From a virus, in the IMG/VR virus record IMGVR_UViG_3300031841_001101, positions 1 through 25,758 of that record: a DNA stretch of 25,758 nt. One strand, given 5' to 3'. The translations under genes were made by a program, and so were the position numbers. The notes under the pieces are model-generated. The model was given only the letters and a program-made list of their open reading frames with translations, was not told the DNA's origin and made no database searches. Positions 2,967-25,758 of this stretch are shown here, piece after piece (positions within the stretch are counted from its first letter, which is position 1; every line of letters begins with the position of its first letter).

Positions 2967-3262
2967 TGTCGAGGGGTCTAGTACAACCGCTGTTTCCAAC
3001 CGCGCCGCAGGACTACGACCCGCGGTTTATGGCAGAAGTTGTGCGGGCGTTTTCGGTATTTTTGCAGCAGGTTAACAATCCGGGGCCGTGGCAGGCTTCT
3101 GCTTTGGCGTTGCCGGATTTGCAGCAAGACAACTTTGAGCTTCGCGTGGGAGATGTATTTCAACACGGGGACCAGTTGCGGATAACTGTGGCAAATATGC
3201 CATACCCGCGTGGCTCCACAGCAACAGGGGCCGTGGGCAGCGTCACGGTATCAACACCATGA
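2966..3262 (+). CDS. Small virion-associated protein of unknown function
   Basis: A 98-residue protein whose ATG overlaps the stop of the hub gene (TAATG at 2964-2968) and whose own stop overlaps the next ATG (ATGA at 3259-3262). The N-terminal half is Pro-rich and then helical (residues 18-37). The C-terminal half, from about residue 57, looks like beta strands ending in a Ser/Thr/Gly tail. The tight junctions place it in the virion operon, and a head-completion or tail-adaptor role would fit. No family is recognised. Confidence 0.72.
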   Translation: MSRGLVQPLFPTAPQDYDPRFMAEVVRAFSVFLQQVNNPGPWQASALALPDLQQDNFELRVGDVFQHGDQLRITVANMPYPRGSTATGAVGSVTVSTP

Positions 3263-3492
3263 GTGACGAGACTATCATTACTATGGCGGACGGCAGTGAG
3301 TGGCGTCCATCAACAAGTCGAGACGTTGTAAGTTGTGCTTCTTGCGACAACGAAGTGGATACTCCGGCTGAAATCCTGTCGTATCCAAGCGGGGACTGCC
3401 CGAGTTGCGGTAACCCGTGGACGGGAAGCGAAAAAAGAAGTACAATGATCACGGTAACTATGCCGGAATCTATGTCCGGTGGAGCAGGCTAA
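3259..3492 (+). CDS. Small zinc-ribbon protein in the structural operon
   Basis: A 77-residue protein with two CxxC knuckles: C-A-S-C near residues 26-29 and C-P-S-C near 47-50, about 17 residues apart. This is the layout of a zinc ribbon or rubredoxin-like fold. The N-terminus has a short beta segment (T-I-I-T-M-A-D-G-S-E-W). Four-base and one-base overlaps join it to both neighbours, so it is co-translated with virion genes. The function is unknown: it may be a minor virion component or an assembly factor. The zinc site is inferred from the cysteine spacing. Confidence 0.72.
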   Translation: MSDETIITMADGSEWRPSTSRDVVSCASCDNEVDTPAEILSYPSGDCPSCGNPWTGSEKRSTMITVTMPESMSGGAG

Positions 3493-19912: not shown

Positions 19913-20160
19913 TGTTACTAGCGGACGGATTTGATAAGGCTTTTATAGGAGTGGGCTTACGAGCCGGACAGGAAGAGATAGTCGTGTACGACTTTGATAT
20001 ATGCGTGGCTATATTGTGTGAACGAGACAACATGGATCTGGATGATGCGATTGAGTTCATGTACTACAATGTTGTCGGGGCTTGGATGGGAGAAGGCACC
20101 CCTTTGTTTGTTCAACGAATGAATAACATAGGAGATCTTCACGATGTCGATGTCGATTAG
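19912..20160 (+). CDS. Small conserved phage protein of unknown function
   Basis: 82 residues, coupled to the primase by a TAATG overlap. It has the pattern L-L-A-D-G-F-D-x-A-F-I-G at the start, V-Y-D-F-D-I-C-V-A-I-L in the middle and N-V-V-G-A-W-M-G-E-G-T-P-L-F-V near residues 54-68. I recall this as a widespread family of small phage proteins without known function. No cysteine pairs or membrane segments are seen. Its end overlaps the next gene by 17 bases. It probably acts with the replication proteins, but only by position. Confidence 0.78.
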   Translation: MLLADGFDKAFIGVGLRAGQEEIVVYDFDICVAILCERDNMDLDDAIEFMYYNVVGAWMGEGTPLFVQRMNNIGDLHDVDVD

Positions 20161-20515
20161 AAATCAGGAAATCTACAGAGAACGGGTAGAAGAAAAGAGA
20201 ACGCTTCAAGCTATTGCCAATAAATATGCAATTAGTCGTGAGCGGGTACGCCAAATAGTAAGAAAAGTGGGCAAAGATAACGAGCTTGAGAAAAGCTTTC
20301 CAGAAACACCTGTTCGGGTTTTTGACATTCAATGGACTCGCCGGACATATAACTGCCTACGTAACGAAAACCTTACGCCAATGTTTCTATCAGAGTTTGT
20401 TGAGCATACCAAAACAAACGACCTGCGCAGAATACCAAACTTAGGCAAGATAAGTCTGCGTGAGATAAAAACAAAACTAGGCAATCATGGACACGTGTTA
20501 CCTTATGGATACTAA
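20144..20515 (+). CDS. Sigma-70 region 4-like HTH fused to an RNA polymerase alpha-CTD-like domain
   Basis: 123 residues with GGAG nine bases before the ATG. Residues 10-42 match sigma-70 region 4.2, the -35-recognition helix-turn-helix: T-L-Q-A-I-A-N-K-Y-A-I-S-R-E-R-V-R-Q-I compares with T-L-E-E-V-G-K-Q-F-D-V-T-R-E-R-I-R-Q-I of E. coli sigma-70. Residues 64-115 match the RNA polymerase alpha C-terminal domain: R-T-Y-N-C-L-R-N-E-N (67-76) and P-N-L-G-K-I-S-L-R-E-I-K (98-109). By this alignment E. coli R265, N268, C269, G296, S299 and E302 are kept (R67, N70, C71, G101, S104, E107), while K298 is Ile103. It is probably a promoter-directed transcription regulator acting with host RNA polymerase. 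Both halves are recognised by pattern. Confidence 0.8.
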   Translation: MSMSIRNQEIYRERVEEKRTLQAIANKYAISRERVRQIVRKVGKDNELEKSFPETPVRVFDIQWTRRTYNCLRNENLTPMFLSEFVEHTKTNDLRRIPNLGKISLREIKTKLGNHGHVLPYGY

Positions 20516-22022: not shown

Positions 22023-22273
22023 AGCGCGAAGAAATACTTAAAAAAGCAGGGAGCCTAGTCAACGGCCCACGGGCCAAAGCCTACGGCGATGCCCAAGAAA
22101 ACCACGAGCGCATAGCCAAGATGTGGTCAGTGCTTCTGGACAAAGAGGTTTCTGTCTCGCAAGTCTATCAATGTATGATAGCGGTCAAACTATCACGGCT
22201 CATTGTAACCCCAGAACATGAAGATAGCTGGGTGGATATCTGCGGCTACGGCGCACTTGGTGGAGAGGACTAA
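22019..22273 (+). CDS. DUF6378-like small phage protein
   Basis: 84 residues from the ATG at 22019, with AGGAG nine bases upstream; a TTG at 22013 is in frame but less likely. It has the pattern G-S-L-V-N-G-P-R-A-K-A-Y-G-D-A-Q-E-N-H-E-R-I-A (split over residues 10-32), then W-S-V-L-L, V-A-x-K-L-S-R-L and D-S-W-V-D-I-C-G-Y-G-A-L. This matches the DUF6378 pattern I remember from many phages. It is helical with several conserved acidic and His residues; the biochemical role is unknown. It overlaps the helicase end and abuts the polymerase start (TAATG at 22271), so it is co-translated with both. Confidence 0.8.
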   Translation: MKREEILKKAGSLVNGPRAKAYGDAQENHERIAKMWSVLLDKEVSVSQVYQCMIAVKLSRLIVTPEHEDSWVDICGYGALGGED

Positions 22274-24165
22274 TGGCACTACAAATGACTATGTTTGGCC
22301 CTAAGAGTGAATGGGTGCCACCCGCAGAGCTACCCGACATCTTTGATGCAAAGCAAATAGCTATAGATGTCGAGACCCGCGACCCGAACATCAAAACCAA
22401 CGGCCCCGGATGGCCTACAGGTGACGGTGAGGTAGTGGGCTACGCTATCGCGGTAGCGGATTGGGCAGGATATATCCCGATCCGTCACCTTGGTGGCGGC
22501 AACCTCGACGAGCGCATTGTCAATAAATGGCTCAAGAAGGTCTTCGCGTGTCCTGCCGACAAGATTATGCACAACGCACAATATGATGCGGGATGGATAC
22601 GCCAGATGGGATTCACGCTAAACGGTAAAATCATCGACACGATGCTAATCGCCGCGCTACTCGACGAGAACCGCTTTAGTTACAGTCTGAACAGCCTTTG
22701 TTACGACCTGTTGGGCAAAATTAAAACAGAAAAGACATTACAAGAAGCCGCTAGAGAATTTGGCCTCGACCCAAAAGCTGAGATGTGGAAAATGCCAGCC
22801 ATGTATGTCGGGCCATATGCACAAAATGATGCAGAAATCACGCTCGACTTGTGGAACTACTTGTCTACACAATTGACCAAAGAAGACCTTTGGCCTATCG
22901 CCGAACTGGAGTTAAAACTTCTGCCCTGCCTGATTGACATGACTTGGCGCGGCGTCCGCGTTGACCAAGACCGTGTCGAGCGCACCAGAAATTATTTAAT
23001 TAAGCAAGAAAAAGAGATTATCAAACGGATTAAATCCGTAGCTGGTTCTGATGTAGAGCTCTGGGCGGCGGCGTCAATAGCCAAGGCTTTCGATAAACTA
23101 AGCATTGCCTACCCGCGCACAGAAAAAGGCGCACCGTCTTTTACTAAGTCTTTTCTTTCCGATCACCCCCATGAACTGGCTCAGCTAATTGTTAAAGCCC
23201 GCAACCTGAACAAGACCAGCGGCACCTTTATCAACACCATTATGAAGCATTGCCGCAGTGACGGACGCATCCACGGGCATATCAACCAGATTCGCTCTGA
23301 CGATGGCGGCACGGTATCAGGACGCATATCCATGTCCAACCCCAATTTGCAGCAAATCCCTGCCCGCGACCCAGAACTTGGCCCGATGATCCGTAGCCTG
23401 TTCCTGCCGGAAGAAAATGAGCAGTGGGCGGCGATTGATTTCTCGCAACAGGAACCGCGAATCTTGGTGCACTACTCATATGTGTATGGCAAATCCCGCG
23501 GCAAGCAGATGGCTGGCGTTGAAGAATTTGTCGATGCCTACCGCAACGATCCTGATATGGACTTCCACACAATGGTGGCAGAAATGGCTAGCATCCCGCG
23601 TAAGCAGGCCAAGACAATAAATCTGGGTATGATGTATGGCATGGGCGTGAACAAACTGTCTGACCAGCTAGACATTGATGTAGATGAGGCCAAAGGCCTA
23701 GTCCGTCAGTATCATGAGCGTGTCCCATTCGTTAAGGGCTTGATGAATGGCGTTCAAAATCGGCTCAACGACCGCGGCTCAAGCGGCTCTGTCCGCTCCA
23801 TATTGGGCAGAAAGTGTCGTTTTGACCTCTGGGAGCCCGACACATTCGCTATGAACAAGGCTTTGCCCTACCAAGATGCCGTCAAAGAATATGGCGAAAC
23901 CACCCGTTTGAAGCGGGCATACACCTATAAAGCCCTGAACAGACTTATCCAAGCGTCCGCCGCGGACATGACAAAGCAGGCAATGGTGAATATTTATGAA
24001 CAGGGGCGTATCCCGCTCATTCAAATTCACGATGAGATAGCAATTTCTGTAAAAAATCGTGAAGATGCAAAAAGTATTGCCAAAGTCATGGAAAATGCTG
24101 TACCGTTAGAAATACCCAGTAAGTGCGATGTTGAGATCGGGCCAAGCTGGGGAGAGGCGCAGTGA
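22273..24165 (+). CDS. polA: Family A DNA polymerase with 3'-5' exonuclease
   Basis: 630 residues. The N-terminal DnaQ-like exonuclease keeps its metal ligands: I-D-V-E-T (Asp32, Glu34), N-A-Q-Y-D (Asp105) and Y-A-Q-N-D-A (Asp186). The polymerase domain has motif A A-I-D-F-S-Q-Q-E-P-R (Asp389), motif B R-K-Q-A-K-T-I-N-L-G-M-M-Y-G (Lys447, Leu451, Tyr455) and motif C I-H-D-E (His586, Asp587). No 5'-3' exonuclease domain is present, as usual for phage polymerases. It should replicate the phage genome from primers made by the AEP primase. Leu451 occupies the position of E. coli Phe762. The start overlaps the previous stop; the fold looks complete with no DnaJ-like insertion. Confidence 0.97.
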   Translation: MALQMTMFGPKSEWVPPAELPDIFDAKQIAIDVETRDPNIKTNGPGWPTGDGEVVGYAIAVADWAGYIPIRHLGGGNLDERIVNKWLKKVFACPADKIMHNAQYDAGWIRQMGFTLNGKIIDTMLIAALLDENRFSYSLNSLCYDLLGKIKTEKTLQEAAREFGLDPKAEMWKMPAMYVGPYAQNDAEITLDLWNYLSTQLTKEDLWPIAELELKLLPCLIDMTWRGVRVDQDRVERTRNYLIKQEKEIIKRIKSVAGSDVELWAAASIAKAFDKLSIAYPRTEKGAPSFTKSFLSDHPHELAQLIVKARNLNKTSGTFINTIMKHCRSDGRIHGHINQIRSDDGGTVSGRISMSNPNLQQIPARDPELGPMIRSLFLPEENEQWAAIDFSQQEPRILVHYSYVYGKSRGKQMAGVEEFVDAYRNDPDMDFHTMVAEMASIPRKQAKTINLGMMYGMGVNKLSDQLDIDVDEAKGLVRQYHERVPFVKGLMNGVQNRLNDRGSSGSVRSILGRKCRFDLWEPDTFAMNKALPYQDAVKEYGETTRLKRAYTYKALNRLIQASAADMTKQAMVNIYEQGRIPLIQIHDEIAISVKNREDAKSIAKVMENAVPLEIPSKCDVEIGPSWGEAQ

Positions 24166-24253: not shown

Positions 24254-24279
24254 TTTTTCTCATATTTCCTCCCAACTTA

Positions 24280-24303
24280 CCCCCGCTTCGGCGGGGGTTT
24301 TTT
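24280..24303 (+). terminator. Rho-independent terminator with UUCG loop
   Basis: CCCCCGC and GCGGGGG form a perfect 7-bp stem around a TTCG tetraloop, followed at once by six T. It ends the replication operon 27 bases after the membrane peptide gene. Confidence 0.95.
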
Positions 24304-24305
24304 GC

Positions 24306-24334
24306 TTGCAATAATACTATATATCTTATATATT
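24306..24334 (+). promoter_or_regulatory. Probable sigma-70 promoter for the RHH gene
   Basis: TTGCAA (24306-24311) and TATATT (24329-24334) are 17 bases apart, directly after the terminator. The transcript would begin near 24341, 27 bases before the ATG at 24368. Each box is one or two bases from consensus, within a very AT-rich stretch. Confidence 0.6.
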
Positions 24335-24367
24335 CGCTTATAGAAACACAAAATATAGGGTTTTTTC

Positions 24368-24505
24368 ATGGATATTACCAAATGGAAGTCTGTTCTTGTG
24401 CCGATTGAGGTATATGAGCAGATAAAAACGATTGCAAAAGCAGAAGGCCGCACAATCAGCGGTCAACTTCGCATTATGTGGGAAGTCTACAAAAAACATA
24501 AGTAG
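24368..24505 (+). CDS. Small ribbon-helix-helix (CopG/Arc-like) DNA-binding protein
   Basis: 45 residues. The layout W-K-S-V-L-V-P-I (6-13, strand), E-V-Y-E-Q-I-K-T-I-A-K-A-E-G (14-27, helix A), R-T-I-S-G-Q-L-R-I-M-W-E-V-Y-K-K (28-43, helix B) is that of a minimal ribbon-helix-helix dimer, with the G-R-T-I-S turn typical of the fold. Such proteins bind short inverted or direct operator repeats through the paired beta strands. It has its own promoter and is followed at once by a terminator, so it is expressed apart from its neighbours. It may be a phage repressor, and TGACA-type sites at 16858-16897 are a possible target. The ribosome site is weak (GGG only). Confidence 0.75.
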   Translation: MDITKWKSVLVPIEVYEQIKTIAKAEGRTISGQLRIMWEVYKKHK

Positions 24506-24537
24506 TCAGCTACTATATGTAGTTGACTCCTTTTTTT
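24504..24537 (+). terminator. Rho-independent terminator after the RHH gene
   Basis: AGTCAGCTAC (24504-24513) pairs with GTAGTTGACT (24519-24528) through one G-U pair, with a five-base TATAT loop; CC and seven T follow. The stem begins within the stop codon of the RHH gene. Confidence 0.8.
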
Positions 24538-24547
24538 ACCTATGGTA

Positions 24548-24556
24548 TGGGATAAT
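24548..24556 (+). promoter_or_regulatory. Possible extended -10 promoter for the zinc-protein cluster
   Basis: TGG-GATAAT has the TGn extension directly before a near-consensus -10 hexamer, 30 bases before the next ATG. A TTGACT at 24523-24528 is too far away for normal spacing, so the extended -10 would have to suffice. A promoter is expected here because a terminator lies just upstream. Confidence 0.45.
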
Positions 24557-24585: not shown

Positions 24586-24996
24586 ATGGAAAAACACAAT
24601 ACACTGTATGCAATCCAGTTTGCTCTGCACGAGTATGACGAAACAGGAGCCGTGAGCCGTCGCACGATGGAAATGCTGGGCGCACGGGCTATCCTGCTCC
24701 GTTATGAAATCGAAGGCGAGGTAGCCGAAGCCCTAGCCAGAGAAAAGGCTAAGAAAAAAGCCGCAGAACCTGACCCGCCTACGAATATCGTGCAGATGAA
24801 AGAACGCGAACCAATTAAAAAGCGCAAGAACGGCAGAATAAACTGCGCGAACTGCGGAACGCGGCTCACGGGCCAGCAACGCAAGTATTGCTCCAAGAGA
24901 TGCTCTAAACAGCATTGGCTCAAAAATAATCGTGAACGTGCAAAACAGCACAATCGTAATTGGTATCAACGCCAGAGGGATCTAGGACGTGCCTGA
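24586..24996 (+). CDS. Zinc-binding protein with C-terminal CxxC/CxxxC site, unknown function
   Basis: 136 residues with GGGAG upstream of the ATG. The N-terminal half (1-60) is helical, ending in a basic A-R-E-K-A-K-K-K segment; a basic linker leads to a zinc site: C-A-N-C-G (Cys87, Cys90) and Y-C-S-K-R-C (Cys102, Cys106), followed by a W-L-K-N-N-R-E-R helix and an Arg/Gln/Asn-rich tail. This resembles treble-clef or HNH-type zinc folds that bind nucleic acid, but no H-N-H catalytic residues are clear. It is the first of four small zinc proteins. A DNA- or RNA-binding role is likely, and its specific function is unknown. Confidence 0.78.
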   Translation: MEKHNTLYAIQFALHEYDETGAVSRRTMEMLGARAILLRYEIEGEVAEALAREKAKKKAAEPDPPTNIVQMKEREPIKKRKNGRINCANCGTRLTGQQRKYCSKRCSKQHWLKNNRERAKQHNRNWYQRQRDLGRA

Positions 24997-25156
24997 TTAT
25001 ATAACTTGCCCAGAATGTGGCGGAGAGGGACAATGCGAATATGAAGTCGCTGTCCCCGCCCCCATGGCGTGGCGTGGCGGCTGGCTAGAAGGCCGCATAA
25101 TGGAGTGCGAACTCTGCGGCGGGTCAGGGGAGATTGAAAATGAGGCCGAAGAATAG
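24989..25156 (+). CDS. Small DnaJ-type zinc-finger protein
   Basis: 55 residues starting at a GTG that overlaps the end of the upstream gene by eight bases. It holds two CxxCxGxG-like motifs: C-P-E-C-G-G-E-G (7-14) and C-E-L-C-G-G-S-G (40-47), which in DnaJ/Hsp40 central domains bind zinc. There is no J-domain, so it is a stand-alone zinc finger. Such short proteins are common in phages; a chaperone-like or redox role is possible but unproven. The start is the least certain part: AGGGA is the only ribosome-site-like sequence, about 10 bases before the GTG. Confidence 0.65.
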   Translation: MPDYITCPECGGEGQCEYEVAVPAPMAWRGGWLEGRIMECELCGGSGEIENEAEE

Positions 25157-25328
25157 GGAACCATTCGGGGATGCTGGTGTAATACAAAAGGCGTTAAACG
25201 AAGGCAGATGCCCAAAGTGCTTAGTTAACCTGCCAGAGCCCGCGGACAACGGGTCAGTGACCTGTCCGGTCTGCTTACTAACAGTTGGAGACTATCGTGA
25301 TATGTCCGAAATGCAAATCAAAGAGTAA
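25140..25328 (+). CDS. Small zinc-ribbon protein
   Basis: 62 residues from the ATG at 25140, with GGGGAG (25127-25132) seven bases upstream; an in-frame TTG at 25134 is unlikely. Two knuckles, C-P-K-C (24-27) and C-P-V-C (42-45), make a typical zinc ribbon. The N-terminus is basic (R-P-K-N-R) and the C-terminus acidic. It overlaps the DnaJ-type gene by 17 bases and the NrdR-like gene by 32 bases. The role is unknown. Confidence 0.75.
   Translation: MRPKNREPFGDAGVIQKALNEGRCPKCLVNLPEPADNGSVTCPVCLLTVGDYRDMSEMQIKE
25287..25290 (+). promoter_or_regulatory. Ribosome binding site setting the NrdR-like start
   Basis: GGAG lies six bases before the GTG at 25297, inside the upstream zinc-ribbon gene. 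It supports the GTG start over the in-frame TTG at 25285, which would overlap this site. Confidence 0.65.
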
Positions 25329-25587
25329 GGTCTACGACTCACGGCCCACAAAAGACGGCACAATACGCCGTAACCGTGAGTGCCTCAAATGTAGACACCG
25401 TTACGCCACAGTTGAAGTGTTGGCGGAGATAAAAAAAGAAACTGCAAAGCCGGTTCAAAAAAAGAAACTATCAAAAAAGGCTCAGTCCGCACGATCAATG
25501 GCGCGGCGGCTGGCTAGTCGAATGTCTGATGATGAACTGTTCGAAGCTTTGGAAAAAGGTTTTATATCTGCGGATGATCTAGATTAA
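25297..25587 (+). CDS. NrdR-like zinc-ribbon protein lacking the ATP cone
   Basis: 96 residues from a GTG. Residues 1-40 match the zinc ribbon of NrdR, the bacterial repressor of ribonucleotide reductase genes: M-I-C-P-K-C (Cys3, Cys6), V-Y-D-S-R (12-16), T-I-R-R-N-R-E-C-L-K-C (22-32, with Cys29, Cys32) and R-Y-A-T-V-E. NrdR is about 150 residues with an ATP-cone domain after this ribbon. Here the ribbon is followed by a Lys-rich linker (45-65) and a short helical acidic end (S-M-A-R-R-L-A-S-R-M-S-D-D-E-L-F-E-A-L). It could bind NrdR-box DNA without nucleotide control, or simply bind nucleic acid. No ribonucleotide reductase gene is in the window. Confidence 0.75.
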   Translation: MICPKCKSKSKVYDSRPTKDGTIRRNRECLKCRHRYATVEVLAEIKKETAKPVQKKKLSKKAQSARSMARRLASRMSDDELFEALEKGFISADDLD

Positions 25588-25756
25588 GAAAATCTATGCA
25601 GTATTCCCATGACCGGCTTTCTAGATCATCCCTATCAAATTTTCGGGGCAGGATACGCTTAGTAACCTGCCCCTTTAAATATTCTACGGGTTTGAACAGC
25701 ACCCGCTCACAATCAACAGCTACAAGAGCCACTATATCGCAATGATCTTTAGTGAG
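25562..25756 (-). CDS. C-terminal part of a possible PD-(D/E)XK endonuclease-like protein (5' end outside window)
   Basis: A minus-strand frame stays open from the window edge to a TAA at 25564-25562. The 64 visible residues look like real protein: D-I-V-A-L-V-A-V-D, V-L-F-K-P-V-E-Y, a basic T-K-R-I-L-P-R-K-F stretch and S-W-E-Y-C-I near the end. This resembles the C-terminal part of group I intron-associated/PD-(D/E)XK small phage endonucleases, as I remember them. The catalytic half would lie beyond the window. It runs convergent to, and overlaps by 26 bases, the NrdR-like gene. Without the rest the family is tentative. Confidence 0.5.
   Translation of the reverse strand, partial: LTKDHCDIVALVAVDCERVLFKPVEYLKGQVTKRILPRKFDRDDLESRSWEYCIDFLNLDHPQI
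25572..25631. repeat. 12-base perfect inverted repeat at the end of the NrdR-like gene
   Basis: GGATGATCTAGA (25572-25583) and TCTAGATCATCC (25620-25631) are exact inverted copies, separated by 36 bases. One arm lies in the end of the NrdR-like gene; both lie in the convergent partial gene. No T-run follows, so it is not a classical terminator. Confidence 0.6.
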
Positions 25757-25758
25757 CG

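Follow-up and report, generated by a model that had tools for sequence, protein, structure and literature searches.

Behind the DNA polymerase gene of a common aquatic phage group lies a fixed slot that holds an optional set of four small zinc-type genes, z1 to z4, and not an obligate quartet. The window, meaning the whole stretch of DNA analyzed, is the 25,758-base virus record IMGVR_UViG_3300031841_001101 (positions 1 to 25,758). Within it, z1 to z4 are predicted to be one transcription unit with a conserved promoter of its own, downstream of polA and its terminator and of a CopG-type gene. What might such a unit do? The reading favored here, with about as much trust as doubt, is that the unit is an accessory operon in which the phage keeps small regulators that bind nucleic acids or RNA polymerase, served by its own promoter behind a CopG-type repressor gene.

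The locus and its transcription signals

As a preliminary description of this DNA had reported, four consecutive zinc-type genes lie within 1 kb, and all four open reading frames were recovered in place (Table 1). They overlap by 8 nt (z1/z2), 17 nt (z2/z3), and 32 nt (z3/z4), the last of which presupposes that the GTG at 25297 is the z4 start codon; a GGAG stands six bases 5' of it. A convergent gene on the minus strand overlaps the end of z4 by 26 nt, and a full homologue in the same place in locus L084 scores 24.5 bits against PDDEXK_5, just below the cut-off of 26.1. The four are confirmed as real genes under purifying selection, with dN/dS between 0.00 and 0.39 wherever it could be computed between the window and seven relatives (saturated synonymous sites prevented this for one pair of z4 genes).

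Table 1. Features of the polymerase-side region of the window
Feature	Position	Strand	Description
DNA polymerase A gene (polA)	22273-24165	+	Upstream anchor outside the unit; Pfam DNA_pol_A 1.1e-62
Intrinsic terminator after polA	24279-24306	+	8-bp G+C stem (hairpin 24279-24298), then T-run
copG promoter-like site	24306-24334	+	TTGCAA, 17 nt, TATATT; region conserved in relatives
NrdR-box-like element in the copG 5' UTR	24346-24361	+	ACACAAAATATAGGGT; two mismatches to the NrdR-box consensus; shares bases with the ribosome-binding region
copG, CopG/RHH_5 DNA-binding protein	24368-24505	+	45 aa; PF07878 (RHH_5) 27.1 bits, cut-off 26
Inverted repeat and T-run	24504-24537	+	May terminate copG and/or act as an operator; overlaps the -35 of the following promoter
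Predicted cassette promoter	24523-24555	+	TTGAC - T-run - TATGGTATGGGATAA
z1	24586-24996	+	ATG start, 136 aa, C87-x2-C90-x11-C102-x3-C106
z2	24989-25156	+	GTG start, 55 aa, two CxxCxGxG (DnaJ-type) motifs, acidic tail
z3	25140-25328	+	ATG start, 62 aa, C24-x2-C27-x14-C42-x2-C45, zinc-ribbon-like
z4	25297-25587	+	GTG start, 96 aa, C3-x2-C6-x22-C29-x2-C32, NrdR-type ribbon
Convergent gene, truncated where the window ends	25562-25758	-	PD-(D/E)XK-like protein, 3' part only

A hairpin and T-run comparable to the polA terminator occur at the same place in many relatives. In the search that gave the copG promoter-like site, the number of promoter matches was not above that in shuffles. The interval from copG to z1 contains a conserved block, TTGAC - T-run - TATGGTATG(G/C)GATAA, and after it a ribosome-binding site. 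The core of the block, TATG(G/C)GATAA, was found downstream of the polymerase gene in 45 of 71 loci among the matches listed and is absent from the other 26, nearly all of which have a polymerase at about 80%. Of the 45 listed loci that bear the motif, 42 have as their first open reading frame after it a z1 family gene or one for a short AT-hook protein; for the remaining three no frame was picked, one being truncated and two having the motif more than 900 nt past the polymerase gene. The lead AT-hook-like proteins score below the Pfam AT_hook cut-off (17.0 and 13.7 versus 17.4 bits), and three loci (L009, L018, and L092) carry z1 and an AT-hook protein together. The inverted repeat at the cassette promoter is kept in close relatives only. 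A second motif resembling the cassette promoter, with three mismatches, was seen in the relatives G001 (about 50043) and G002 (about 26589, both in reverse-complement coordinates), about 2.3-2.6 kb farther downstream and with a similar ribosome-binding sequence after it. The earlier view of the four genes as one coupled unit is thus borne out by the predicted conserved promoter and by the gene order kept in relatives.

Optional members in a fixed order

To gather relatives, viral contigs were searched with the polymerase and the 80 best loci were taken from a larger set; searching with z1 and z4 contributed more. Once redundant loci were dropped, 81 were left, and these were scored with profile HMMs for copG and z1 to z4. 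The close set comprises 37 listed loci whose polymerase is 86% identical or more and which extend 1700 nt or farther past it, the window excluded; the distant set comprises 18 listed loci with a polymerase 70-86% identical.

Among the matches listed, all four families occur in 20 of the 37 close loci, and the gene order is violated in none of them. A stricter count, which discounts L014 and L015 because their z1 has no zinc site, finds four zinc-type genes in 18 of the 37, including one locus (L099) with a Cys-poor z1. The preliminary description had named genes scattered or missing in related phages as the sign of chance grouping, and the close clade, with 20 of 37 listed loci complete and the order never broken, does not show it. 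Chance grouping was rejected because the simulated probability of four consecutive zinc-type genes is about 3e-4 (75 genes assumed) and because the order is kept in relatives. The 57.5-kb relative G001 has five plausible zinc-type genes beyond nested and antisense frames, four of them being the cassette. A fifth small Cys4 zinc-ribbon-like frame in the window (3259-3492, 77 aa) lies among structural genes and is conserved in G001.

Membership is looser than order. Among the 37 close loci listed, z1 is absent in 9, z2 in 11, z3 in 2, and z4 in 9, while none of the 18 distant loci listed has all four genes and one of them (L065) breaks the order; these absences speak against a joint job needing all four genes, as had been suggested. 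The copG gene, by comparison, was found in all 37 close and all 18 distant loci (55 of 55 with at least 1700 nt past the polymerase gene, among the matches listed). The operon of some relatives also admits genes of other kinds: a PF07486 cell-wall hydrolase lies inside that of L018 (1e-25) and L116 (5e-25), and a frame resembling it by eye is present in L010 and L038. Since AT-hook genes and a cell-wall hydrolase are among its genes, the operon is no zinc set as such, and the idea of a joint zinc job loses ground accordingly. Synonymous divergence varies from gene to gene as well. For z4, the window and L005 differ by a dS of only 0.03, and the window and L084, L002, L004, and L008 by 1.3-1.5; for z1 and z2, dS to the same four loci is 0.27-0.66. 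This discrepancy indicates that single genes have been exchanged, which fits separable parts. A fixed order with optional members is also a warning that gene overlap is no proof of one complex.

How far does the cassette reach beyond these loci? The nearest named records by polymerase are phage DSL-LC04 and the pelagiphages HTVC023P and HTVC027P, with polymerases 49-55% identical. DSL-LC04 has a replication gene order similar to that of the window, HTVC023P and HTVC027P have a CopG-like small gene after polA as the window does, and HTVC023P and 023Pt_psg01 encode isolated DnaJ-type small proteins after polA. The z1 to z4 profiles had no match in the polA-side stretches examined in four named phage records, and a tblastn search of a phage collection gave only 4 weak matches for z1 and none for z2 or z3. 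Three contigs from metagenome-assembled genomes carry a related polymerase and are titled Verrucomicrobiales (copG, z2, and z3), Rhodobacteraceae (copG only), and Maricaulis (none of these genes), titles in which binning errors are possible.

What the four proteins resemble

Each of the four proteins has one four-Cys site. Conserved zinc ligands are shown for z2 to z4, in which every zinc cysteine is invariant (28 of 28 members of z2, 27 of 27 of z3, and 28 of 28 of z4); in z1, zinc would be dispensable. Do they represent four different folds, as was first proposed? That claim holds in part, since z3 and z4 both have ribbon-type spacing. When five of the six pairs (all but z1-z2) were compared by profile, no relation was detected (probability 1-28%). 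Because those five comparisons were not significant, z1 to z4 were rejected as duplicated copies of one finger. They and copG were also rejected as anti-phage defense genes, as PADLOC gave no match for any of them. Only z4 among the four scores above a Pfam cut-off, the labels of z1, z2, and z3 being sub-threshold matches.

z1 is predicted to begin with a hairpin of two helices, which a linker modeled at low confidence joins to a compact C-terminal module closed by a last helix (mean pLDDT 79.6, pTM 0.36), the C terminus forming a treble-clef-like CxxC/CxxxC module with a basic tail. None of the 111 matches in a fold search reached an E value of 0.001 or less. The C terminus is most like a MYND finger: the best Pfam match is zf-MYND (PF01753) at 4e-4, but with 20.8 bits against a cut-off of 22.7, and the top structural match is a MYND domain with an E value of 0.45. 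In contrast to MYND and treble-clef fingers, z1 has an N-terminal helical domain with no known match, and its zinc ligands are gone in 6 of 29 members. In these six (L033, L038, L039, L040, L044, and L099) C-S-A-Y stands for C-C-C-C in a flanking sequence that is still recognizable, and only the first Cys is invariant across the family. The proteins scored as z1 in L014 and L015 consist of a z1-like N-terminal domain (E values of 5e-4 and 6e-5) and an AT-hook-like tail with no zinc site. As AT-hook-like repeats take the place of the zinc module there, the exchanged parts would both be of DNA-binding types.

In z2, the Cys and Gly residues of both CxxCxGxG motifs are invariant in all 28 members. 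The DnaJ zinc domain has four such motifs, whereas z2 has two and no J-domain; its profile matches the DnaJ central domain (1exk) at 3.7e-6 with no single stretch passing alone, and PF00684 gives 16.2 bits against a cut-off of 32.7. Members also match PHROGs annotated as "anti-termination protein Q-like" (phrog_127 in 6 of 28 and phrog_6060 in 5 of 28 at E ≤ 0.01, best 3e-4, all weak matches). A test for anti-TRAP in z2 (PF15777, 12.3 bits, cut-off 32) and one for a TFIIB-type ribbon in z3 (PF08271, 17.2 bits, cut-off 29) were negative, and for both proteins the matches to PHROGs and Pfam are weak overall. In seven contigs (L160, L167, L168, L170, L176, L179, and L181) a z2-type match lies close upstream of a z4-type gene, an adjacency seen directly in L160, L168, L176, and L181; the stretches of these contigs that were searched contain no match to the window-type polymerase. 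By eye, L168 and L176 resemble one temperate group, while L167, L170, and L179 share their spacing.

The best-defined of the four is z4, whose residues 1-44 are the N-terminal ribbon of NrdR (PF22811, 48.6 bits, cut-off 27.2). Its profile matches five NrdR sequences in the PDB (E values of 6e-9 to 2e-8), and in a fold search with its predicted model only NrdR appeared at E ≤ 0.001, with 8 matches; the predicted models of z1 and z4 both have low pTM (0.36 and 0.37). NrdR consists of a zinc ribbon plus an ATP-cone, whereas z4 has a basic linker and an acidic tail instead of the latter: at only 96 aa it has no Pfam match to an ATP-cone, and it scores 44.4 bits against the 124.65 required for the NrdR equivalog TIGR00244. 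The tail carries a conserved (S/T)D(D/E)E, in which Asp78 and Glu80 are invariant in 28 of 28 members.

According to PMC12176259, the NrdR ribbon dimer is held by contacts of Arg27, Arg29, and Glu42, and DNA is recognized by Asp15, Arg17, Arg26, Arg28, and Arg37. In the alignment, the dimer residues correspond to R25, R27, and E40 of z4, each present in all 28 members. Within the recognition set, Arg17 (z4 position 16) is kept in 28 of 28, Arg26 (24) is Arg in 25 of 28, and Arg37 (35) is Arg in 18 and Lys in 10, whereas Asp15 (14) is Asp in only 4 and Arg28 (26) is Arg in only 3. With the dimer residues invariant and two of five recognition residues mostly replaced, it appears that the dimer scaffold was kept and the base-reading set partly rebuilt.

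Two of 28 z4 members match a PHROG annotated as "transcriptional regulator." Ogr/Delta proteins are short phage zinc-finger regulators that activate late genes, and z4 falls below their cut-off (PF04606, 19.6 versus 26.3 bits); gp96 of RcZahn, a distant z4-type protein, is annotated as an "Ogr/Delta-like Zn-finger protein." Proteins of this type are widespread, with 50 loci in one scan, 33 of them new. Roseobacter phage CRP-901 (OQ401623.1), an isolate with a known host, has an unannotated z4-type frame at 684-839 on the reverse strand, between gp02 and gp03, and MW202554.1 has another at about 2983-3111, between two annotated DNA polymerase pieces. In MW677529.1 (RcZahn, gp96) and L153, z4-type genes stand directly after a ThyX gene or a gene that by eye resembles one for an HD-domain protein, which hints at a tie to nucleotide supply.

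Weighing the explanations

Several observations lead to the regulator-operon reading. The order copG-z1-z2-z3-z4 is fixed in the 20 complete loci of the 37 close ones listed, all 37 of which have copG; the promoter core recurs in 45 of 71 listed loci, with the z1 family or an AT-hook protein next in 42 of the 45; z4 matches NrdR and retains its dimer-interface residues; z2 has Q-like PHROG matches and z4 "transcriptional regulator" matches; and z2-type genes lie beside z4-type genes even in contigs without a polymerase match. Counted against it are the PF07486 hydrolase, a nonregulator, within the operon of some relatives, the want of a significant fold match for z1, the weak matches of z2 and z3, the low pTM values, an inverted repeat not kept beyond close relatives, and the 26 of 71 listed loci without the promoter motif.

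How would such an operon work? CopG, judging by its family, would act as a local repressor, and z4 would dimerize through its ribbon on a palindromic DNA site. Having lost the ATP/dATP-sensing half of NrdR, it would no longer be tuned by nucleotides, and its acidic tail may touch RNA polymerase or another partner. For z1, or for the AT-hook protein found in the lead position elsewhere, DNA binding may be less specific and run through a basic C-terminal module in which zinc would be dispensable. z2 and z3 could serve as small zinc adaptors, the DnaJ-type motif of z2 being found also in phage Q-like antitermination families. While the phage infects, z1 to z4 would jointly adjust the transcription of phage or host, each of them a part that can be separated from the others.

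A search of 12 records for a T7-type (single-subunit) RNA polymerase gave no match, a weak result because the control also matched nowhere. The window encodes, at 20144-20515, a 123-aa protein with sigma-70 region 4 and an RNA polymerase alpha-CTD, both above Pfam cut-offs. The alpha-CTD domain (PF03118) was found in the window and G001 only, 2 of the 12 records, and the domain was rejected as a general partner for that reason. The literature listings searched on small phage zinc proteins, phage NrdR, AT-hooks with zinc fingers, and Q antiterminators contain no such cassette, and zinc, NrdR, CopG, and DnaJ go unmentioned in the passages searched of two papers on HTVC023P-type and CRP-901 phages.

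The main rival, which we consider somewhat unlikely, is that the slot holds a stack of unrelated small host-takeover or counterdefense genes behind one strong promoter, with no common biochemical theme and with zinc merely keeping tiny proteins folded. Every z gene is absent in some relatives, hydrolase and AT-hook genes are intermixed in the operon, and the z4 of the window was exchanged separately (dS as above), all of which a mere stack would accommodate. It explains less readily an order fixed over wide divergence, the z2-type/z4-type pairing in phage contigs without a match to the window-type polymerase, and the DNA-binding signatures in copG, z4, the AT-hook proteins, and probably z1. 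The overlaps, fixed order, and single promoter might suggest that the four zinc proteins are one complex with a single target. That arrangement is very improbable, however: of the loci listed, only 20 of the 37 close ones and none of the 18 distant ones have all four, and each is absent in some. Zinc buffering or storage, also proposed at the outset, draws on the four Cys4 sites within 1 kb and is the least credible idea of all: there is one site per protein, and it was rejected because in 6 of 29 members z1 has given up three of its four ligands, the flanking sequence being conserved.

Could z4 instead be a decoy of host NrdR, occupying NrdR boxes or pairing with host NrdR ribbons and so derepressing host ribonucleotide reductase (RNR) for phage DNA synthesis? 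An NrdR ribbon with an invariant dimer interface and no sensor domain would suit this role, as would the z4-type genes adjoining ThyX or an HD-domain protein in some phages. Genes for the large and small RNR subunits were found in 0 of 8 related viral records, which may be fragments (none is rated at least 90% complete) and one of which, G006, has no match to the window-type polymerase. According to PMC12753301, host nrdAB rises during infection by HTVC027P, a phage with no nrd genes, though the z4 profile has no match in the HTVC027P stretch examined.

The NrdR-box-like element preceding copG also favors a decoy. Scanning with the NrdR-box consensus gave a best match of at most three mismatches in 17 of 72 loci listed versus 0.4% of shuffled regions. 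Such elements lie close before copG in 16 loci including the window, none of which is known to lack z4 and two of which are cut off before it. A weaker sequence, with four mismatches, lies 32 bases upstream of the window's element, and the palindrome of the cassette promoter differs from an NrdR box by 5-6 mismatches. The element is a lead only, as its matches cluster in related loci, that in L014 is far from copG, and many z4 carriers are without it; it may be a coincidence. Two considerations make the decoy rather doubtful: two of the five recognition residues are mostly changed, and 21 z4-carrying loci have no box of three or fewer mismatches near the copG start.

Returning to the regulator operon, a bolder form of it is conceivable, though we rate it as distinctly speculative. 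z4 would belong to a widespread phage class of constitutive, sensor-free, dimeric NrdR-ribbon DNA binders with changed base-reading residues, which run a phage regulon (including their own copG-cassette locus) or jam the host's control of nucleotide supply; together with z1 to z3 it would make up a rack of exchangeable regulators whose DNA-binding tails, zinc or AT-hook, are freely swapped. As for the preliminary interpretation, it is partly supported overall. Among the targets it had guessed at, interference with transcription fits best, and no evidence was found for interference with chaperones or translation.

Overall, if the regulator reading holds, phages have taken over NrdR's DNA-binding half and dispensed with its nucleotide sensor. 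A common group of aquatic phages would then maintain, at one fixed place behind the polymerase gene, a set of small DNA-binding parts that can be swapped. These parts would be candidates, open to direct test, for how these phages steer host transcription.
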